From contig JACQPE010000085.1 in assembly GCA_016207685.1 (NCBI GenBank), positions 1-44,732 of the forward strand: DNA of 44,732 bases, given 5' to 3'. Under the pieces are notes generated by a model. It saw only the letters and a program-made list of their open reading frames with translations, was not told where the DNA came from and searched no databases. How positions within the stretch are numbered: the stretch's first letter is position 1; each line of letters starts with the position of its first letter. The translations under genes and the position numbers were made by a program. Source of the DNA: Elusimicrobiota bacterium. Its GTDB lineage: Bacteria; Elusimicrobiota; Elusimicrobia; JACQPE01. This document shows positions 2,956 through 16,488 of the stretch, one piece after another.

Positions 2956-3536
2956 CCGAGCAGGTTTACTTACTGGCCGCAGGTCAAGGAACACGCATGG
3001 GTGGCCCCAAGGCCTGGCTGAATCACAGAGGAAAAACTTTGCTCCGTCTCCAGACCCAATTTCTTTTGAAGCATTTTGCACCTCAAGGAATATTCATCAC
3101 TATTCAAGGAGAATGGCTGAAGCGTTGTCAAGCCATCCATGGAGGCATCCGGTGGATTGCCGTCAACCCTGCCGCATTCCCTCTTGGCGCTCTCATGGAC
3201 CTGGTCCGATCAAACGACCGGAAACACTGGGCCTTTCTCTATCACGTTGATATGCCGGTCTGGAAATATGAATTATTTAAATCTCTTAAAGATCAGATCG
3301 GTCCGAATGAGGAGGCCATTGCCCCGGCGTACCAAGGCCGCCAGGGCCATCCCATCCTATTATCCCCTCAAATCCAACAAAAAATTTTGACCTTAAATCC
3401 CGATCGCGACCGTCTTGATTGGTGGCTTAAAAACCGCCGGATAAAAATTGTTGAAACGCCTGATTCTTGCATGTTAAATAATTGGAACGCGCCCAATGAC
3501 CATAAAATACAACGAATGGATACTCAAAAGCGATAA
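2952..3536 (+). CDS. MocA/MobA-like nucleotidyltransferase (molybdenum cofactor cytidylyltransferase family)
   Basis: N-terminal LAAGQGTRMGGPKAWL motif; located with a molybdenum hydroxylase. Confidence 0.75.
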   Translation: MTEQVYLLAAGQGTRMGGPKAWLNHRGKTLLRLQTQFLLKHFAPQGIFITIQGEWLKRCQAIHGGIRWIAVNPAAFPLGALMDLVRSNDRKHWAFLYHVDMPVWKYELFKSLKDQIGPNEEAIAPAYQGRQGHPILLSPQIQQKILTLNPDRDRLDWWLKNRRIKIVETPDSCMLNNWNAPNDHKIQRMDTQKR

Positions 3537-4863
3537 CGTTGTCACCGACCAAGGCGTGACTAGCGCCGCCATCTGGATCCAAGACGGTAAAATTCAAAAA
3601 ATAACGCCGCCTGGCCAGGCTCCGAAAAATGCGACCATCCTGGATGCGGGCGCCTTGGCCATTTTGCCCGGCCTTGTGGACACGCATGTTCATATCAATG
3701 AGCCGGGCCGCGCCGATTGGGAAGGTTTTGAAAGCGCCACCAGAGCCGCTCTTGCCGGCGGCGTGACGACCTTGGTGGATATGCCCTTAAATAGCTCGCC
3801 CGTGACAACCACGCTGGAATCTCTTGATGCCAAACACGCTTCGGCAACGGGAAAGCTTTGGGCTGACTGCGGTTTTTGGGGAGGGGTGGTGCCGGGAAAT
3901 CAAAACGAACTTGAACCTATGATTAAGGCAGGAGCCCTGGGGTTTAAGGCTTTTTTGATTGATTCCGGCATTGATGACTTTCCTAAAGTTGACGAATCGA
4001 GCCTAAACAAAGCCATGCTTATTTTAGCCAGGCATGGAGCGCCTCTCTTGGCGCATGCGGAACTTGAGGGACCCCTTTCCATGCGCGAGGGTAAGGTCCC
4101 CAATGATAAACACCGCTATGCCGGCTATCTTTTTTCACGCCCTGAATCTTGGGAAATCGAAGCTATCGAAATTCTTATTCGTCTCTGCCAAAAAACCGGA
4201 TGCCGCACCCACATCGTGCATCTTTCGTCATCAGAGGCATTGGAAAGCATTGCGCGCGCAAAAGCACAGGGGTCGCCCATTACCGCAGAAACCTGCCCCC
4301 ATTACCTTATTTTTTCCTCGGAGAAAATTCCTGATGGAGCGACCCAGTTCAAATGTTCCCCCCCAATTCGCGATAGCGAAAATCAAAACCAACTTTGGCA
4401 AGCGCTTAAAGAAGGCATCGTGGATTTCGTCGTGTCGGATCATTCGCCGTGCCCGGCTGAAATGAAGCTCTTGGATACCGGAGACTTCATGCGCGCATGG
4501 GGCGGCATTTCATCGCTGCAATTTGGGCTATCCTCCATTTGGACCCAATCGAAAAATCACGAATTTGATCTTTGCGATATTGTCCGCTGGATGAGCGAGC
4601 GGCCGGCTCGGTTTGCCGGGCTTGGAACCCGCAAGGGCCGCATCGCGCCCGGATTTGACGCCGATCTGATGATTTTTGATCCCAAGGCTGCGATCACCAT
4701 TGAGCCCAAAATGATCCACCACCATCATAAGCTGACACCCTATCAAGGAATGCGGCTCAAGGGTCAAGTGCGCACTGTGTTCCTAAGAGGAAGTAAAATT
4801 TATGATCAAGGGATATTTAATGAACCTGCCGGACAAATTATCACCTCTCAAAAATTTTCTTGA
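3496..4863 (+). CDS. allB: Allantoinase
   Basis: LPGLVDTHVHINEPGRADWEGFESATRAALAGGVTTLVDMPLNSSP; amidohydrolase family; neighbours are purine-catabolic. Confidence 0.93.
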   Translation: MTIKYNEWILKSDNVVTDQGVTSAAIWIQDGKIQKITPPGQAPKNATILDAGALAILPGLVDTHVHINEPGRADWEGFESATRAALAGGVTTLVDMPLNSSPVTTTLESLDAKHASATGKLWADCGFWGGVVPGNQNELEPMIKAGALGFKAFLIDSGIDDFPKVDESSLNKAMLILARHGAPLLAHAELEGPLSMREGKVPNDKHRYAGYLFSRPESWEIEAIEILIRLCQKTGCRTHIVHLSSSEALESIARAKAQGSPITAETCPHYLIFSSEKIPDGATQFKCSPPIRDSENQNQLWQALKEGIVDFVVSDHSPCPAEMKLLDTGDFMRAWGGISSLQFGLSSIWTQSKNHEFDLCDIVRWMSERPARFAGLGTRKGRIAPGFDADLMIFDPKAAITIEPKMIHHHHKLTPYQGMRLKGQVRTVFLRGSKIYDQGIFNEPAGQIITSQKFS

Positions 4864-5827
4864 ATTGCCTGATTTGGCATCAACGCGCCTTGGCGGCAGG
4901 GCGCTTTACGCCAATGATGAATTTTTCGCGCCTAAAGAAAATCTTTTAAGACAAGAAAAACCTATTTTTATCGAGGGCAAATACACTCATCGCGGCAAAT
5001 GGATGGACGGCTGGGAGACGCGCCGCCGCCGGACACCGGGACATGATTGGTGCCTTATTTCTCTGGGTCTTCGCGGCATGATCCGCGGTTTTAATGTTGA
5101 CACGAGTTATTTCGTTGGGAATTATCCTGAGCGTTGCTCCATTGAGGCCATTGATTTGCCGGAAAACCCTGCTCGTAAAAAACTTCTCAATCGTAATCTT
5201 CAATGGAGAGAACTTTTGCCTCAATCAACCCTCAAAGGCGGCGGCGATAATTTTTTTAACATATCATCGGCGCCGCCATGCACTCATTTGCGTTTCCATA
5301 TCTATCCCGATGGCGGGGTTGCACGCTTGCGCGCCCATGGGGAGGTCGTGCCCGATTGGAAACGCCTGCCAAAGTCAGGCCGGCCGCTCAATCTGGCGGC
5401 GATTGAAAACGGCGCCGTGGCCGTGGCCGCCAGCGACATGTTTTTTGGCTCAAGAAATAACCTTTTGATGCCCGGACGGGCCAAAAATATGGGCGACGGC
5501 TGGGAAACCAAGAGGCGCCGGAGCCCTGGTTATGACTGGGTGGCCATCCGCCTGGGAGCCCCGGGGCTCATCCAAAAAATCGAAGTTGACACCAATCACT
5601 TTAAAGGCAACTACCCGGACCGTTGCTCCATTGAAGGCGCAAATAAAGTCGAGAATGGCGATTCATGGCAGGAAATTCTGTCTCAAACAAAACTCAAGGC
5701 TCATACGCGGCATTTTTTTGCCAAGGAATTGAAAGCCCGAGGACCTTTTAGCCATGTCCGGCTTAATATTTTTCCCGATGGCGGCGTGAGCCGTTTGAGA
5801 ATTTATGGAAAGCCTAAATTTTTTTAA
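4820..5827 (+). CDS. alc: Allantoicase (ORF track starts at 4802; ATG at 4820 preferred)
   Basis: Two internally repeated allantoicase domains (DGWETRRRRTPGHDWCLISLG / DGWETKRRRSPGYDWVAIRLG; NYPERCSIE / NYPDRCSIE). Confidence 0.93.
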   Translation: MNLPDKLSPLKNFLELPDLASTRLGGRALYANDEFFAPKENLLRQEKPIFIEGKYTHRGKWMDGWETRRRRTPGHDWCLISLGLRGMIRGFNVDTSYFVGNYPERCSIEAIDLPENPARKKLLNRNLQWRELLPQSTLKGGGDNFFNISSAPPCTHLRFHIYPDGGVARLRAHGEVVPDWKRLPKSGRPLNLAAIENGAVAVAASDMFFGSRNNLLMPGRAKNMGDGWETKRRRSPGYDWVAIRLGAPGLIQKIEVDTNHFKGNYPDRCSIEGANKVENGDSWQEILSQTKLKAHTRHFFAKELKARGPFSHVRLNIFPDGGVSRLRIYGKPKFF

Positions 5828-8670: not shown

Positions 8671-10059
8671 TCAAGCAATTGATCTTTTGCGGTTTTCGAG
8701 AATTTTTAGGAAGGAACGTAAGTTAAATTCCTCCTGGGTTAAGCCGGATCGCTCGGCCTCCTCTTGAGTGATCGCGCCGCAGTTCAAGGCTCTTAGAAAA
8801 TAATTCAGCAGCCCCTGTCCCGTGGCCGCGTCATCAAAAATATCGCCGAGCAATGTTGCCTGGGCCGCTTTATCTATAAAATTTTTCAAACGAACCGAGG
8901 CGGCTTCATAATTCTGAAGAAAAAAGTGATACACGGCCGCATAGCGAGTAGGCAGTTGGGCGGGATGCAAATCCCATCCTTGATAAAAGCCGGATATTAA
9001 CGAATGTTGAACATTTTCGTAATGAAGCTTCCAGGCGCGAAACACGGCATTTTGGTTTTCTTGGAGTTCCTCCGGCGTCAAACCGGGGCCTCCGGGAGCG
9101 CTGCGGTGCACGGGAACAGGCATGACATTGGTGGCGCCATCGCTTAAACGGATGTTGGACTGGGCAAGAGCCACCTGCATCATCTCTTTGGCAAAATCGC
9201 ACGCGGGATGCGTCATGGACTGATAGGCCGCCGTGATTTGACGCAAGGCTGTGTAATCATAAGTTCCAAAATGAGCGGCGACGACTCGCCCCGCGCCGGC
9301 CTCAACAATGGCGCGCAGAGCCGGACCGGTCCCCCTGCTCAAAATCGCCTGGGGTGTTTCAATCATGAGTTCGATTTTAAGGGAACCTTTAGGATATTTC
9401 GCTTTGCCCTCGATTAGGCTCAAAATCTTGGACAAAGTTTCAACCTGTTTTGGAAAAACAACCTTGGGTAGGGTAACGACAAAATAAGGGGGCAGCCCCC
9501 CCTGCGCGCGCCGCGCCAAAGTGGTTAAAAAAATATCCAAGGTCCGGATGCTGCGCTCATGAAGCTCCGGAGAAAATGGCTTGATGCGAATCCCTGTAAA
9601 TGGCGGCAGGGTTCCGGCGTCCATCCCTCGATAAAGCTCTTCAGCTGCGGTGCGGGCATGGCCGTCTTCCTCATCATCGGGCCTGTTGCCGTAACCGTCT
9701 TCAAAATCAATGCGAAAATCCTCCACAGGCTCGCGTTTGAGCTTATCCACGACTCGTGAATAGATCGTTCCAGCCAAATTTTGATCGCGCCAGCCGAGGG
9801 CTTGGGCAAAAATAGCGGGACCAGGCGCGTAAGTTTCAAGGGACCTCAACGCTAAATTTCCCAATTTTGCCGTCGTGTCGAACTTAAAAAGATGAGCGCC
9901 CCCGTAAACCGTATGCACGGCCTGGCGCGCGCCGTCTTCCCCGGGATAATTTTTGGCGTAGTCGCTATTGGCCTTTTTTAGAGAAACTAAAACGCTATTC
10001 AAACTTTTAGGATCAAGGCAACGTCTGCTTGGCTCAAGAGCCTTCTCAAGGGTTTTCAT
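8671..10059 (-). CDS. CitE/HpcH-HpaI-like lyase/aldolase (resembles the DUF6986 family)
   Basis: DFEDGYG, IELMIETPQAI and FGTYDYTA metal/substrate motifs of the PEP-utilising TIM-barrel lyases; ATG at 10059 preferred over the ORF-track start. Confidence 0.75.
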   Translation of the reverse strand: MKTLEKALEPSRRCLDPKSLNSVLVSLKKANSDYAKNYPGEDGARQAVHTVYGGAHLFKFDTTAKLGNLALRSLETYAPGPAIFAQALGWRDQNLAGTIYSRVVDKLKREPVEDFRIDFEDGYGNRPDDEEDGHARTAAEELYRGMDAGTLPPFTGIRIKPFSPELHERSIRTLDIFLTTLARRAQGGLPPYFVVTLPKVVFPKQVETLSKILSLIEGKAKYPKGSLKIELMIETPQAILSRGTGPALRAIVEAGAGRVVAAHFGTYDYTALRQITAAYQSMTHPACDFAKEMMQVALAQSNIRLSDGATNVMPVPVHRSAPGGPGLTPEELQENQNAVFRAWKLHYENVQHSLISGFYQGWDLHPAQLPTRYAAVYHFFLQNYEAASVRLKNFIDKAAQATLLGDIFDDAATGQGLLNYFLRALNCGAITQEEAERSGLTQEEFNLRSFLKILENRKRSIA

Positions 10060-10921
10060 AATAATTTGCCTCCGATAGGAACGATCGTAAGATATTTTGC
10101 GAAATTTGAAGGCGGTATTCACGAGTTGAACGGACATCATCGATGGGGTCAACGTCATCTTTAAGAAGACGGCAGGCTTCCTCCACCGCATCGCGATGCA
10201 ATTTTTTTCCCTTAATGAATTTCTCCGCCTTAACCAACCTCCTGACGGTTGAGGCCATGCTGCCCAAGGCAAATCGCAGCTCCTCAACGGTTCCATCTTG
10301 TCCGACCCAAAGTAGTCCGGCGGCAACGGTTTTTGATATCGCTTGAGCCGCGCGCGTGCCGACCTTCCGAAATAACCGGCGCGCTCCTTTCCTGGAGTAA
10401 GGAATTTCCACGGATTCGATCAGTTCGGCAGGCAACAGCCGGGTCTTTTTGACGCCCTCAAAAAAATCCATGAAGGCTAAGGCGCGCCGGCCTTGGCGCG
10501 AAATCAGGCGGACAATGGCCTCATAAACAGCCAAAACTGGAAATGTGTCCCCTGCCGGTGAAGCATTGGCGATATTGCCACCCAAGGTTCCCTTATTTTG
10601 TATTTGGAGACCACCCACGACGCTGCAAGCGGTTTGGATAAGCGGGAAATGCCGTCTAACCGCGGCGTTTCTTTGAATATCTGCGTGCGCCGTTAAAGCG
10701 CCGATGAGGACGCCTTTTTTTAAGGCGCGCACACCCCTAATCTCCCGGATTAAAGAAATATCCAAAACTTTTTTATTATTTAACAACCCGGCATTCCAAG
10801 CAACCATCAGGTCCGTGCCTCCGGCCAAGACCAGGGAATCGGGATTTTCGCCGTAGGCTTGAAGCGCTTTTTCCAGCGATGACGGCTGCAAAAAATAAAT
10901 GGAATCCGGTGCGCCGCGCAT
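10046..10921 (-). CDS. Xanthine dehydrogenase FAD-binding subunit
   Basis: LVLAGGTDLMVAWNAG, GALTAHADI, TLGGNIANASPAGDT. Confidence 0.93.
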   Translation of the reverse strand: MRGAPDSIYFLQPSSLEKALQAYGENPDSLVLAGGTDLMVAWNAGLLNNKKVLDISLIREIRGVRALKKGVLIGALTAHADIQRNAAVRRHFPLIQTACSVVGGLQIQNKGTLGGNIANASPAGDTFPVLAVYEAIVRLISRQGRRALAFMDFFEGVKKTRLLPAELIESVEIPYSRKGARRLFRKVGTRAAQAISKTVAAGLLWVGQDGTVEELRFALGSMASTVRRLVKAEKFIKGKKLHRDAVEEACRLLKDDVDPIDDVRSTREYRLQISQNILRSFLSEANYYENP

Positions 10922-11017
10922 GAAATCAGGATATAGGAGATAGGATAGAGGAGATCGTGGAATGATGATTAAAAAATCTGATGCGGCAAATGATTGACTT
11001 CAAAATCCATTTTTTGA

Positions 11018-11497
11018 TCATTTGGTCCTGCTCTCCCGTTTTCGCTCTTTGATTATTTTAATGACCGAATTGACGATATGCTGGTAACCGGTGCAGCGGC
11101 AGAGATTTCCTGCCAAGGCTCGGCGAATTTCAGAAGGACGCGCGGAGCCGCCCCGGGATATCCATGCCCAAGCGGACATGAGCATTCCGGGGGTACAAAT
11201 GCCGCACTGGGCGCCGCCTTCCCTTAAAAATGATTCCTGCAGACGATGCAGCGACTTGGGTGTTCCCAGGGACTCCACTGTTTCAATCCGGCGTCCGTTC
11301 ATTTGAGCCACCGGTATCAAACAGCTATTGACAGGGTCGCCGTCCACAAGAACCGTGCAAGCGCCGCATTCGCCTTCACCACAGCCCTCTTTTGTGCCCG
11401 TTAATTCATAATTTTCCCGCAAAACATCAATCAAACGTTTAAATGGCGCGCCTTCATAAACGCGCTTCTTTTTGTTGATGGTCAACTTAATTCGCAT
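11018..11497 (-). CDS. Xanthine dehydrogenase 2Fe-2S subunit
   Basis: GCGEGECGACTVLVDG, AQCGICTPGM, NLCRCTGYQ. Confidence 0.96.
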   Translation of the reverse strand: MRIKLTINKKKRVYEGAPFKRLIDVLRENYELTGTKEGCGEGECGACTVLVDGDPVNSCLIPVAQMNGRRIETVESLGTPKSLHRLQESFLREGGAQCGICTPGMLMSAWAWISRGGSARPSEIRRALAGNLCRCTGYQHIVNSVIKIIKERKRESRTK

Positions 11498-13706
11498 TTA
11501 TTTTCCGGCAAATTTTTTCAGGAAGAATGGGGAGTTCCGTCATCCAAAGTCCTGTGGCATGACCAATGGCCGCGGCTACCGCAGGCCCCGGAATATCCAT
11601 GGGCAGTTCCCCGACGCCCTTGGCCCCCCAAGGTCCATGGGAATACGGCTTCTCCACGATTTCTACATCCATCGGCGGAGTGTCCATCGCCGTCGGAATT
11701 ATGTAATTGGTTAACTGCGAATTTTGCATAAAGCCATTTTGATAAACCGGGTTTTCCCAAAGCGCATAGCCCAAGGCTTGCGTGATGCCGCCGATCATTT
11801 GGCCTTCGGCTAATTTTGAATTAATGGCGCGGCCAATGTCCTGAACCGTTGTCAAACGGCGAAGCCGCACTTCATAAGTCGCGCGGTCCACTTCTAAATC
11901 TACCGCCACGCAGCCATAGCTAAATACCCCATAAGCGTCACCCGAATAGGCATGATCGTTCCACTCGATTTCATCGGGTTTTTTATATTGGACGATAAAA
12001 GCCCTGAACGGCGCTCCGTTTAAAATTTTAGCGGCAGCCCGCGCGAGTCCCTTTTTGGTCCTTGGAAATTCTCCGGCCGCTCGAACTACGGCTTCTTTCA
12101 TTTCCAATGCGGCGCGCTCAATCAACCCGCCGACAACCATGCAGGTCCGGCTCGCCACCGTCGGTCCGCTGTCCGGAACTAGGCTCGTATCAGGCATTTC
12201 AATCTCAACCATGGTCTGCGGGAGATCAAGCGCATGGGAAACAATTTGAGCGAATATCGTGTTGGTTCCCTGGCCGATTTCCGTTGAGGCGGTAAGGACC
12301 TTGACCGTTCCCTCCTGGGTCAAGGACACGCCGGCGCGGCTGGCCAAATAAACTTCTCCGGAACCCGTAAATCCCGCCCCATGATGAACCAAGGCAATCC
12401 CCATGCCGCGCCAGGTGGAGTGGCGTTTATTTTTATTCCACCTAGAGTATTCTTTCCTTTTTTGAGCATAGCGGCTGCGCTTAAGCGTGCGTTCCAAAAC
12501 TTCTCTCGCGCCCACGCTTTCGCGCAAAATTTGCCCAGTGGCCGTCACGGCGCCTAACTTAAAAACATTTTTCCGCCGCAACTCCACGGAATCCATGCCA
12601 ATGACGCTCGCAATTTTTTCCATGTGCAATTCAGCCGCGAAAAGAGTCTGCGGCGCGCCAAAACCGCGAAAGGCGCCGTTGGGCGGCGTGTTGGTGATCA
12701 TGCACACGGAACGCACACGCACGTTGGGGCATTCATAAGGACCTGTCGCATGCAAAGCCCCTCGTGATAATACGACCGGCGACAAGGTGGCATACGCGCC
12801 CCCATCCATGATGACCTCAATATCTTGCGCCAGAAGCCGGCCGTCTTTGGCAACGCCTGTTTTATGGCGCACAATAGCGGGATGGCGCTTCGTTGTCGCG
12901 GCCATATCCTCATGACGGTCGTAGATTATTTTAACGGGTCGGCCTGATTTAAGCGCCAATAGCCCGGCATGCCCGGCGATCATGCTAGGGTAATCTTCTT
13001 TGCCCCCAAAGCCGCCCCCCGTTGTTGTTTGAATCACGCGGATTCGATGGTCGGAAAGTTTAAATACCGCTTTTAACGCCTTATGCACATAATAAGGACA
13101 TTGCATAGACCCCATCACCACAAGAGAGCCGTCTTTTTCAAAATAAGCGGCGATTCCGTTGTTTTCAATATAAGCCTGTTCCTGATGGGGTACGCGGTAT
13201 TCCCCTTCAACCACAAAATCGGCTTGCGCCATGGCCGATTCAACGCTGCCGCGCTCGATCAATAATTTCTTGAACGCATTGTCCATGGAATAAAGCGTTT
13301 CTTTAAGCGCCAGAGATTCTTCAATAGTTAAAACCGGCGGCTGTTCCATAAACTCCGCCCGTATATGAGAAAGCGCTTCATAAGCTTTGTGCCGCTGTGA
13401 ATGCGCCACCAAAACGATCGGCTCCAAGGGATGCGTGATTTTAACGTCAGCCAGGAGCGGCTGGTCATTCTCAATTAAGACAACGCGATTGACACCCGGA
13501 ATATCCTTGGCCGTGACCACCGTGAATTCATCCCAAGAAAATTTTGGGTCAAAAACGATTTTTTTAATTAAACCGCGCGCAATCGAAGAGCGGTAAGTGA
13601 CGCCGAAAAGGCATCCCGGAAAAGTGTAATCGTCAATATAACGAGCCGTGCCGCAAAGTTTCTCGGGCCCTTCCCGGCGCCAGATGTTCGTCCCAGCGGC
13701 AGGCAT
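11487..13706 (-). CDS. Xanthine dehydrogenase molybdopterin subunit (start at internal ATG 13706 preferred)
   Basis: TTGGGFGGKEDYPS, GAFRGFGAPQ, EIGQGTNTI, GAKGVGELP. Confidence 0.93.
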   Translation of the reverse strand: MPAAGTNIWRREGPEKLCGTARYIDDYTFPGCLFGVTYRSSIARGLIKKIVFDPKFSWDEFTVVTAKDIPGVNRVVLIENDQPLLADVKITHPLEPIVLVAHSQRHKAYEALSHIRAEFMEQPPVLTIEESLALKETLYSMDNAFKKLLIERGSVESAMAQADFVVEGEYRVPHQEQAYIENNGIAAYFEKDGSLVVMGSMQCPYYVHKALKAVFKLSDHRIRVIQTTTGGGFGGKEDYPSMIAGHAGLLALKSGRPVKIIYDRHEDMAATTKRHPAIVRHKTGVAKDGRLLAQDIEVIMDGGAYATLSPVVLSRGALHATGPYECPNVRVRSVCMITNTPPNGAFRGFGAPQTLFAAELHMEKIASVIGMDSVELRRKNVFKLGAVTATGQILRESVGAREVLERTLKRSRYAQKRKEYSRWNKNKRHSTWRGMGIALVHHGAGFTGSGEVYLASRAGVSLTQEGTVKVLTASTEIGQGTNTIFAQIVSHALDLPQTMVEIEMPDTSLVPDSGPTVASRTCMVVGGLIERAALEMKEAVVRAAGEFPRTKKGLARAAAKILNGAPFRAFIVQYKKPDEIEWNDHAYSGDAYGVFSYGCVAVDLEVDRATYEVRLRRLTTVQDIGRAINSKLAEGQMIGGITQALGYALWENPVYQNGFMQNSQLTNYIIPTAMDTPPMDVEIVEKPYSHGPWGAKGVGELPMDIPGPAVAAAIGHATGLWMTELPILPEKICRKINAN

Positions 13707-13729
13707 CGCCAAAAAAGCCTGTTTTCGCC

Positions 13730-13855
13730 TTACCGGTGATGGTGATGATGCCGGTGCCACCAGGGACGGCGGCGGCCGTCAACAACAACGCATGAAGAAA
13801 ATACAAAAGATACGATGATTAACAGGGCCCCCAACATGCCGATGGTTTTCCTCAT
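13730..13855 (-). CDS. His-rich micro-lipoprotein, 41 aa (MRKTIGMLGALLIIVSFVFSSCVVVDGRRRPWWHRHHHHHR), not in the ORF track
   Basis: ATG to TAA on minus strand; lipobox-like FSSC after a hydrophobic segment; fits exactly between the ANTAR stop and the preferred xdh start. Confidence 0.6.
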   Translation of the reverse strand: MRKTIGMLGALLIIVSFVFSSCVVVDGRRRPWWHRHHHHHR

Positions 13856-13856
13856 T

Positions 13857-14672
13857 TTATTTCCCCCTTAACGATTTAGCGGCGACATCTTTGGCAATCA
13901 AAATTGCCTGCGCCACCTCTTTCATGGTTTTACGCAAAGACATGCTTTGAGATTGAATCCTCTTGAACGCCTCTTCTTCAGTCAGCCCCTCGAGAGCCAT
14001 CAGCACGCCCTTGGCCCGATCAACGACTTTCCTGGTCTGCAAATCTTCTTCCAACGTCTGAATGCGTTCTCCCATTATACGCGATTCCTCATAAAGCCGG
14101 GCCTTCTCAATGGCGCCGCCGATCAAACGGCCGATGGTGGATAAAATGCCGATTTCATGCGGCCTGTGCCGCCGCCCCTTTTTATGCTGGACATTAATGA
14201 CGCCAACCACCTCGTCTTTCGTGAGAACCGGGATGGACAAAAACGCCTCGTACCGGTCTTCGGGAAGATTCCGAAAAACACGAAACCGCGCGTCCTCCGA
14301 AGCATTTTTAAAAATGACCACGGGTTTTTTATGTGACGCGACCCAGCCCGTAATTCCTTCTCCGAGCTTAAGCCGAATTTGCCCCAGCTCCATAGGATGG
14401 GGATTTTTAGACGCGCGCAAAATCAGCTCGGATGTCCCGGGTTCATAAACATAAAGAAAACAGCCGTCCGCTTTAGTCACACCTGTGACCAGGTCCACGA
14501 CTTGGGAAAGAATTTCATCAAGCTGCCAAACGGAACTGATAATTTCAGCCACGCGCTGCAATAAGGCGATATCCCGGTCCTTTTGGCGTAGAAGCGGCCC
14601 CAATTGTTTCGGCGATGCGGCCGAATTAGACGACATGAATCCGATTATAGGCTTACCGGCAGGCCTTGACAA
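13857..14672 (-). CDS. GAF-ANTAR RNA-binding antiterminator
   Basis: GAF domain (LGEGITGWVASHKKPVVI) and C-terminal ANTAR (RKVVDRAKGVLMALEGLTEEEAFKRIQSQSMSLRKTMKEVAQAIL). Confidence 0.9.
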   Translation of the reverse strand: MSRPAGKPIIGFMSSNSAASPKQLGPLLRQKDRDIALLQRVAEIISSVWQLDEILSQVVDLVTGVTKADGCFLYVYEPGTSELILRASKNPHPMELGQIRLKLGEGITGWVASHKKPVVIFKNASEDARFRVFRNLPEDRYEAFLSIPVLTKDEVVGVINVQHKKGRRHRPHEIGILSTIGRLIGGAIEKARLYEESRIMGERIQTLEEDLQTRKVVDRAKGVLMALEGLTEEEAFKRIQSQSMSLRKTMKEVAQAILIAKDVAAKSLRGK

Positions 14673-14757
14673 GATTCACTTCATCTAGCAAAATAACAAT
14701 AACGCACAAAGCAGTGCGGCTCACTTTAGGCGTTTAAGCAGAATATCGCTAAAAGCT

Positions 14758-14809
14758 GGGACAATGGAGTCCCTCAAACGCAAGGAAGCGTTTGGGGGTT
14801 TTTCTTTTT
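14758..14809 (+). promoter_or_regulatory. Predicted ANTAR dual-hexaloop antiterminator overlapping an intrinsic terminator in the glnA leader
   Basis: P1 GGGAC-AATGGA-GTCCC (14758-14773); P2/terminator CCCTCAAACGC-AAGGAA-GCGTTTGGGGG (14771-14798) then TTTTTCTTTTT; both loops have A1 and G4. Confidence 0.85.
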
Positions 14810-14839
14810 ATGGCGATTCTGCAAAAAGGAGAAATAGAC

Positions 14840-16372
14840 ATGTCCACTTTAACAGAAACAGTTGCTCGAAGCGCCAATGGCGCGCCCGTAAACAAAACGG
14901 TCACAACAACGGCAAAACCGGCACTTTTCGGCCTGGGATTCACAGCTGAAGCCGGAGCCAAGCGAAGCCCCAAAGAAGTCGTGGACTTCGCTAGAAAGAA
15001 CAAAATCGAGATGGTTGATCTTAAGTTCGTTGATTTCCTGGGAACCTGGCAGCATTTTGGAATCCCTTTAAGCGAACTTAAAGAAAGCTTGTTTAAAGAA
15101 GGCTCCGGCATTGACGGCTCCTCCATCAGAGGCTGGCAAGCGATCAATAACAGCGACATGCTGGTGGTTCCGGATGCTGACACCGCCTTTGTTGATCCCT
15201 TCGCCAAAATTCCGACCCTGTCGCTTGTTTGCGACGTGCTCGATCCGGTAACAGGCAGCCGCTACAGCCGCGACCCTCGCTGGATTGCTCAAAAGGCGGA
15301 AAGCTATCTCAAAAAAACAGGAATTGCCGATACTTCTTATTTCGGCCCGGAAGCGGAATTTTTCATCTTCGACAGCGTCCGCTTTGATCAAACCGCCCAT
15401 AGTGGCTATTACTACGTCGAATCTGACGAGGGCATTTGGAATTCCGGCCGGGAAGGCGTCAATCACGGGTACCGGCCACGCCACAAAGAGGGCTACTATC
15501 CCGTTGCTCCCACGGACTCCCAAGAAGATGTCCGAGCGGAAATGGTCCGCGAAATGGAAAAAGCCGGTATTTTGGTTGAAAAACAGCACCACGAAGTGGC
15601 CACTGCGGGACAGGCGGAAATTGACATGCGTTTTGATACCTTAACGCGCATGGCGGATAAAATTCTTCTCTACAAATATATCTGCAAAAACGTGGCCTTG
15701 CGCTATGGCAAAACCGTGACCTTTATGCCCAAGCCGCTATTCGGAGACAATGGCTCCGGCATGCACACGCATCAGAGCCTCTGGAAAAAAGGTTCCCCTC
15801 TTTTTTCAGGCAAAGATTATGCGGGCATTTCCGAGCTCTGCCGTTGGTACATCGGTGGTGTTTTGAAACACGCCTGGGCTCTGGCCGCGCTGACGAACCC
15901 GACGACCAACTCCTACAAGCGCCTAACTCCGGGCTTCGAAGCTCCGGTTAATTTGGCTTACTCCTCCCGCAATCGCAGCGCCGGCATCCGCATTCCGATG
16001 TATTCGGAAAAGCCGCAAGCCAAACGCATTGAGGTCCGGTTCCCGGATCCCACGGCCAACCCGTATTTAGCGTTTTCCGCCATGTTAATGGCGGGTCTAG
16101 ACGGCATCGAGAACAAAATTGACCCAGGCAAAGCCATGGAGATGGATCTCTATGAACTTTCTCCGGGGGAGGCCGCCAAAGTCCGCCAAATGCCCGGGTC
16201 CCTAAGCGAAGCGGTCGGCGCGCTGGAAAAAGATCATCAGTTTCTGCTTAAAGGCGACGTCTTCACCAAAGACGTCCTGGAAACCTGGATTGAGCACAAG
16301 AAAAAGAAAGAGGTGGACTATATCCGGCTGCGCCCGCATCCGGCGGAATTCTTCCTCTACTTCGACGCTTAG
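14840..16372 (+). CDS. glnA: Glutamine synthetase type I
   Basis: [35 protein letters not shown]-like [22 protein letters not shown] 14840 preceded by AAAAAGGAG. Confidence 0.95.
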
Positions 16373-16386
16373 CCTATGTAGCCTAT

Positions 16387-16488
16387 GGGGTCACATCTCT
16401 ACATTTTACATTTTTAAAAAAAGTGACAAAAAATGGGCAATTTTTTAACTTTATCTCACCAAAATGTAAAATGTAGAGATGTGACCCC
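16387..16488. repeat. MITE/REP-like element with perfect 28-bp inverted repeats
   Basis: GGGGTCACATCTCTACATTTTACATTTT (16387-16414) and its exact reverse complement (16461-16488), 46-nt spacer. Confidence 0.9.

Follow-up and report, generated by a model that had tools for sequence, protein, structure and literature searches.

A predicted ANTAR-type antitermination leader of glnA beside a GAF-ANTAR gene in an Elusimicrobiota genome

The leader of eutP in Enterococcus faecalis, the target of EutV, carries two hairpins, P1 and P2, with hexaloops that have A at position 1 and G at position 4 (A1/G4), and P2 overlaps an intrinsic terminator (PMC3369931, PMC8934654). AC/GU pairs close these loops (A27, C28, G35 and U36 are needed in eutP). 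EutV is a REC-ANTAR protein that acts with a histidine kinase. In Klebsiella oxytoca, NasR is a one-component ANTAR antiterminator with a NIT nitrate-sensing domain, acting on the nitrogen gene leader of nasF (PMC7496416). Ramesh et al. 2012 (PMC3369931) predicted further regulons in Desulfotomaculum, Pelobacter and others, with dual hexaloops over terminators before genes for ammonium transporters, P-II, and glutamate and glutamine synthases. Because dual hexaloops before nitrogen genes, glutamine synthase included, were reported there, this kind of control is already known. The main text of that paper does not name Elusimicrobiota, and we found no literature report of ANTAR antitermination of nitrogen genes in this phylum.

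We analysed a 44,732-nt contig (JACQPE010000085.1, assembly GCA_016207685.1), hereafter the window, from an Elusimicrobiota bacterium. The 5' leader of its glnA gene (~14701-14839) is very probably a canonical ANTAR antitermination element, and the more general reading, an ANTAR-controlled attenuator of glnA, is well supported. A first-pass annotation had proposed such a leader beside a GAF-ANTAR gene, a proposal supported by a covariance model and by folding. What appears to be new, from sequence comparison and a literature partly covered after 2012, is the phylum, the side-by-side GAF-ANTAR/target pair, a 39-nt linker and loops that begin with either purine. The features are as follows.

13857..14636, minus strand: GAF-ANTAR gene, 259 aa, ATG start (PF03861, E 9.2e-21)
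14666..14671, plus strand: -35 element TTGACA of the glnA promoter, with the same TTGACA in relatives
14689..14694, plus strand: -10 element CAAAAT, after a 17-nt spacer
14703-14718, plus strand: P1 hairpin CGCAC-AAAGCA-GTGCG (pair probability 0.96-1.0, covariance model, covariation)
14719..14757, plus strand: P1-P2 linker, 39 nt (folding against shuffles)
14758-14773, plus strand: P2 hairpin GGGAC-AATGGA-GTCCC (GGGACAATGGAGTCCC), the antiterminator arm (letters, folding, covariance model)
14771-14798, plus strand: intrinsic terminator stem CCCTCAAACGC-AAGGAA-GCGTTTGGGGG, as a whole CCCTCAAACGCAAGGAAGCGTTTGGGGG (folding)
14799-14809, plus strand: U tract of the terminator, TTTTTCTTTTT (sequence)
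14828..14831, plus strand: Shine-Dalgarno core GGAG (sequence)
14840..16372, plus strand: glnA, ATG at 14840, 30 nt past the T tract

The glnA product is a type I glutamate-ammonia ligase, or glutamine synthetase (TIGR00653, E 1.5e-198). P1 and P2 each consist of 5 bp and an A1/G4 hexaloop (AAAGCA and AATGGA, respectively), and P1 has the AC/GU closing pairs (AC/GT in DNA) known from eutP. None of 20,000 dinucleotide shuffles of 14695-14812 gave either a dual hairpin of the kind first annotated or two AC/GT-closed A1/G4 hexaloop hairpins. The letters earlier quoted for 14758-14773, 14771-14798, 14799-14809 and the ATG at 14840 match the contig letter for letter. Both hairpins of the annotated pair are real, but their assignment was wrong, as the hairpin taken for P1 is P2, the one taken for P2 is the terminator, and the true P1 went unnoticed. 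The coordinates given for P2 and the terminator were right, whereas the element begins near 14702 and not at 14758, and the zero-length linker described as a novelty is an artefact.

The promoter, TTGACA-N17-CAAAAT, ends 8 nt upstream of P1. Transcription is thus expected to start at P1, with the probable first nucleotide near 14701, just before the hairpin. The relative G003 has identical promoter letters. The arrangement of TTGACA, a 17-18-nt spacer and P1 6-9 nt past the -10 element recurs in 8 of the 12 Elusimicrobia elements with the window counted (7 of 11 without it). The promoters of the two genes are divergent (14640-14671), and that of the GAF-ANTAR gene, TTGTCA-N18-TATAAT on the minus strand, has a -35 element overlapping that of glnA and ends ~10 nt before its ATG; the leader of the GAF-ANTAR mRNA may therefore be very short.

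Folding predictions for RNAs of increasing length showed a switch between two forms. In RNA ending at 14773, P1 had a pair probability of 0.96-1.0 and P2 of 0.93-0.99, and in RNA ending at 14798, P2 fell to at most 0.04, the terminator reached 0.92-1.0, and P1 was kept. The CCC at 14771-14773 is common to the 3' arm of P2 and the terminator, and the earlier claim that this makes the two forms mutually exclusive agrees with the predicted passage from P2 to terminator. Of 25 homologous elements folded, 24-25 have the 3' arm of P2 within the terminator; L064 had been cut at a false T run and is best left out of this count. In the proposed mechanism, P1 and P2 would fold as the RNA emerges, and without the regulator the later terminator would displace P2 and stop RNA polymerase before glnA. 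The divergently made GAF-ANTAR protein, when active, would bind the hexaloops of P1 and P2, hold P2 and block the terminator, on the model of EutV and NasR, allowing glnA to be transcribed. The direction of control, with glnA on when ANTAR is on, is likewise assigned by analogy, and the GAF domain presumably senses nitrogen status or a metabolite.

A Rfam search, as the annotation had recommended, gave no match at the gathering score in the window, and even up to E 10 no relevant one. A covariance search did succeed with a model of our own, built from 18 elements, none of them from the window or its two relatives in the family. It matched 14702-14774 with a score of 27.5 bits and, within the window, an E value of 3.5e-5, compared with 1.1 for the next match. 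Conservation of hexaloops and stems in related leaders, a further check, was found as compensatory changes in both stems. Across 16 Elusimicrobiota elements, 90.6% of cells were paired compared with 73.6% in shuffles, with 30 compensatory cells vs 9.5 and a covariation score of 0.576 vs 0.241 (0/500 shuffles in each case), four pairs per stem being fixed by construction in the pattern-derived members. Eight of the ten pairs changed on both sides, and sliding the partner abolished the signal. G4 is invariant in the loops of these elements, while position 1 is A or G (G in 5/16 P1 loops and 6/16 P2 loops), and A1, which had been called defining, is present here but is not so across the phylum. 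Position 1 tends to agree between P1 and P2 (9 A/A, 4 G/G and 3 mixed; one-sided Fisher p 0.036).

The putative regulator is the sole ANTAR gene of a 2.37-Mb, 90%-complete genome, and its identification as GAF-ANTAR, already made from the sequence, was confirmed with an ANTAR domain of 73.8 bits against a curated cut-off of 27.3. The domain mostly shares its residues with EutV. Of the 11 RNA-contact residues of EutV (structure 6wsh; residue list from PMC8934654), R142, K143, K149, E160, M172 and R175 are identical in the window protein and two are replaced conservatively (K147 by R, Y164 by F), whereas R168, N173 and R177 are replaced by Q, S and T, three differences that count against the main reading. 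In place of the REC domain of EutV and the NIT domain of NasR there is a GAF domain resembling those of PtsP and NifA. As of 2012, no GAF-ANTAR protein had been characterised, according to PMC3369931. Unlike the regulons of Ramesh et al. 2012, the sole ANTAR gene lies here divergently beside its single detected target, which makes this a compact case of one regulator and one target. With a GAF-ANTAR protein paired with its predicted RNA target, the signal becomes directly testable.

The linker is a real departure, and its length counts against the main reading. The 2012 definition (PMC3369931) allows a variable P1-P2 linker of no set length, and gives 5-12 nt in eut, with linkers of 3 or 14 nt impairing induction in the eutP leader; a published search for ANTAR targets kept linkers of 2-25 nt (PMC8164766). 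The 39 nt found here, before glnA and not a eut gene, fall within the definition and outside these ranges. Long linkers, of about 24-39 nt, recur among relatives, and published limits on linker length would miss real elements. The linker folds into a stable hairpin in the relatives G002 (z -4.1) and G003 (z -3.4). A structured hairpin in the window was considered and rejected, its linker being weakly structured and no better than shuffles (z 0.12).

The anatomy first annotated, which takes 14758-14773 as P1 and the hairpin of the terminator as P2 of a zero-linker dual hexaloop bound by the protein, is the least probable of the alternatives. It draws on the fact that both loops (AATGGA and AAGGAA) have 6 nt with A1 and G4, as does the terminator loop of the close relative G002 (AAAGCG). 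However, the covariance model places P1 at 14703, the terminator hairpin has no AC/GU closing pairs, and its stabilisation would not antiterminate. Terminator loops measure 3-8 nt in most of the 25 homologues, and in minimum-energy folds an A1/G4 hexaloop occurs in two of them, those of the window and of the relative closest to it. The G027 terminator can be drawn as a further such case, with an AAGGTG loop, but folds as a triloop. On the same count we rejected the idea that the terminator loop is one more conserved ANTAR site, and its A1/G4 is probably incidental.

Two other explanations keep the ANTAR anatomy or the attenuator but change the role of the protein. That the attenuator is constitutive, its terminator lowering or gating glnA while the ANTAR protein plays no part, is improbable. 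The terminator is indeed strong by prediction and binding of the ANTAR protein is predicted too, but the hexaloops are conserved, the stems covary, the sole ANTAR gene adjoins glnA, and the glnA of G011, a genome with no ANTAR gene detected, is also without the element. Slightly less probable again is an ANTAR target of opposite sign or acting at translation, where binding would repress glnA or alter ribosome access. In actinobacteria, ANTAR targets frequently extend over the ribosome site and act as translational repressors (PMC8164766), and an element elsewhere in the phylum (G260) lies beside a ribosome site with no terminator visible. In the window, by contrast, the element overlaps a terminator and the ribosome site lies ~55 nt downstream of P2. 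ANTAR-dependent antitermination of glnA remains the preferred reading.

Similar elements occur in other genomes. A strict pattern of both hairpins and the T run, searched over 84,980 genomes, retrieved 22 stretches, 17 of which precede glnA (L063, L071), NADP glutamate dehydrogenase (gdhA; L062, L064), ammonium transporter (L069, and L060 in an Uhrbacteria) or glutamate-synthase-like genes (11 loci, mostly Desulfobacterota, called by Pfam for L058 and L059 and by matching N-termini for the others). Among the rest, the L077 leader is the same as that of L075 and its contig ends there, the L066 and L076 elements look like chance, and L061 and L067 were counted neither as nitrogen-gene nor as chance stretches. 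The L067 element (2991-3062, RA.bin118) is a strong ANTAR-type element whose next ORF, 202 nt away, is PMT_2 mannosyltransferase-like, with no nitrogen gene.

In the class, ANTAR genes above the cut-off are present in 23 of 235 genomes and this type of glnA in eight, six of which have both ANTAR gene and element. Of the other two, G011 has a glnA without the element and in G019 the glnA leader is cut off, and an ANTAR gene was found in neither. Elsewhere in the phylum, ANTAR gene and element are both present in G237 and G260, an ANTAR gene and a by-eye element in G259 and G284, and a by-eye element with no ANTAR gene found in G307; neither covariance model matched the glnA leaders of the last three, despite their likeness by eye. 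A class-wide covariance search scored few candidates and missed the known members G017 and G027, and its negatives were set aside. One genome (G027) has the ANTAR gene, a glutamate-synthase-like gene, glnA, amt and P-II together. In G237, P-II, amt and glnA are neighbours on a stretch that also carries a GAF-GAF-ANTAR gene, and in G002 amt lies downstream of the ANTAR gene with an element just before it. Elements of the same design also precede porin genes in other Elusimicrobiota. Since the same element precedes amt, gdhA and porin genes there, its role would be control of ammonium assimilation.

These observations extend ANTAR antitermination of nitrogen genes, as predicted here, to a largely uncultured phylum. 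Tentatively, and with the balance leaning against it, GAF-ANTAR proteins and dual-hexaloop leaders could be the main nitrogen control of glnA, amt, gdhA and glutamate synthase in ANTAR-bearing Elusimicrobiota, acting at elongation where NtrC or GlnR serve elsewhere at initiation, their target loops accepting either purine at position 1 and their linkers reaching ~40 nt. The G260 element (L150:4205-4240), a dual hexaloop, is followed after P2 by CTCCA, a possible pairing partner for TGGAGG, the ribosome site of the following ORF, and suggests translational control there. Upstream of glnA and near the ANTAR gene, two distant genomes (G027, L036; G260, L150) encode a small Cys-rich ORF (MENKGLCSTC... 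and MEEKGICMSC...).

In its own genome, glnA is the only element-bearing gene found. A covariance model built with the window included gave a single match (E 4.7e-6), and the next (E 0.13) has no ORF of at least 100 aa starting just downstream on its strand. A simple P2 pattern retrieved 9 matches vs 12 in the reversed control, which is chance level, and no second element was found within the window with the covariance model. An amt gene as a further target was discarded, no Amt being found in this genome, as was the purine operon, where no element was found. The purine cluster (3496-5827 and 10046-13760) encodes allantoinase, allantoicase and xanthine-dehydrogenase-like subunits, which do not reach the NCBIfam equivalog cut-offs, and then a DUF6986 protein. 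The suggested link to purine catabolism was not supported: the xdh and DUF6986 genes adjoin the ANTAR gene here, yet in neither of the two nearest relatives (G002, G003) do they lie next to the ANTAR-glnA pair, and one of these relatives has an ammonium transporter at that place. By this comparison the purine link appears local to this genome. As no ammonium transporter was detected in it, purine-derived nitrogen could, speculatively, matter to this bacterium. Directly 3' of glnA (16387-16488) lies a MITE-like inverted repeat with GGGGTCACATCTCTACATTTTAC arms, of which 59 matching pieces occur in the genome.
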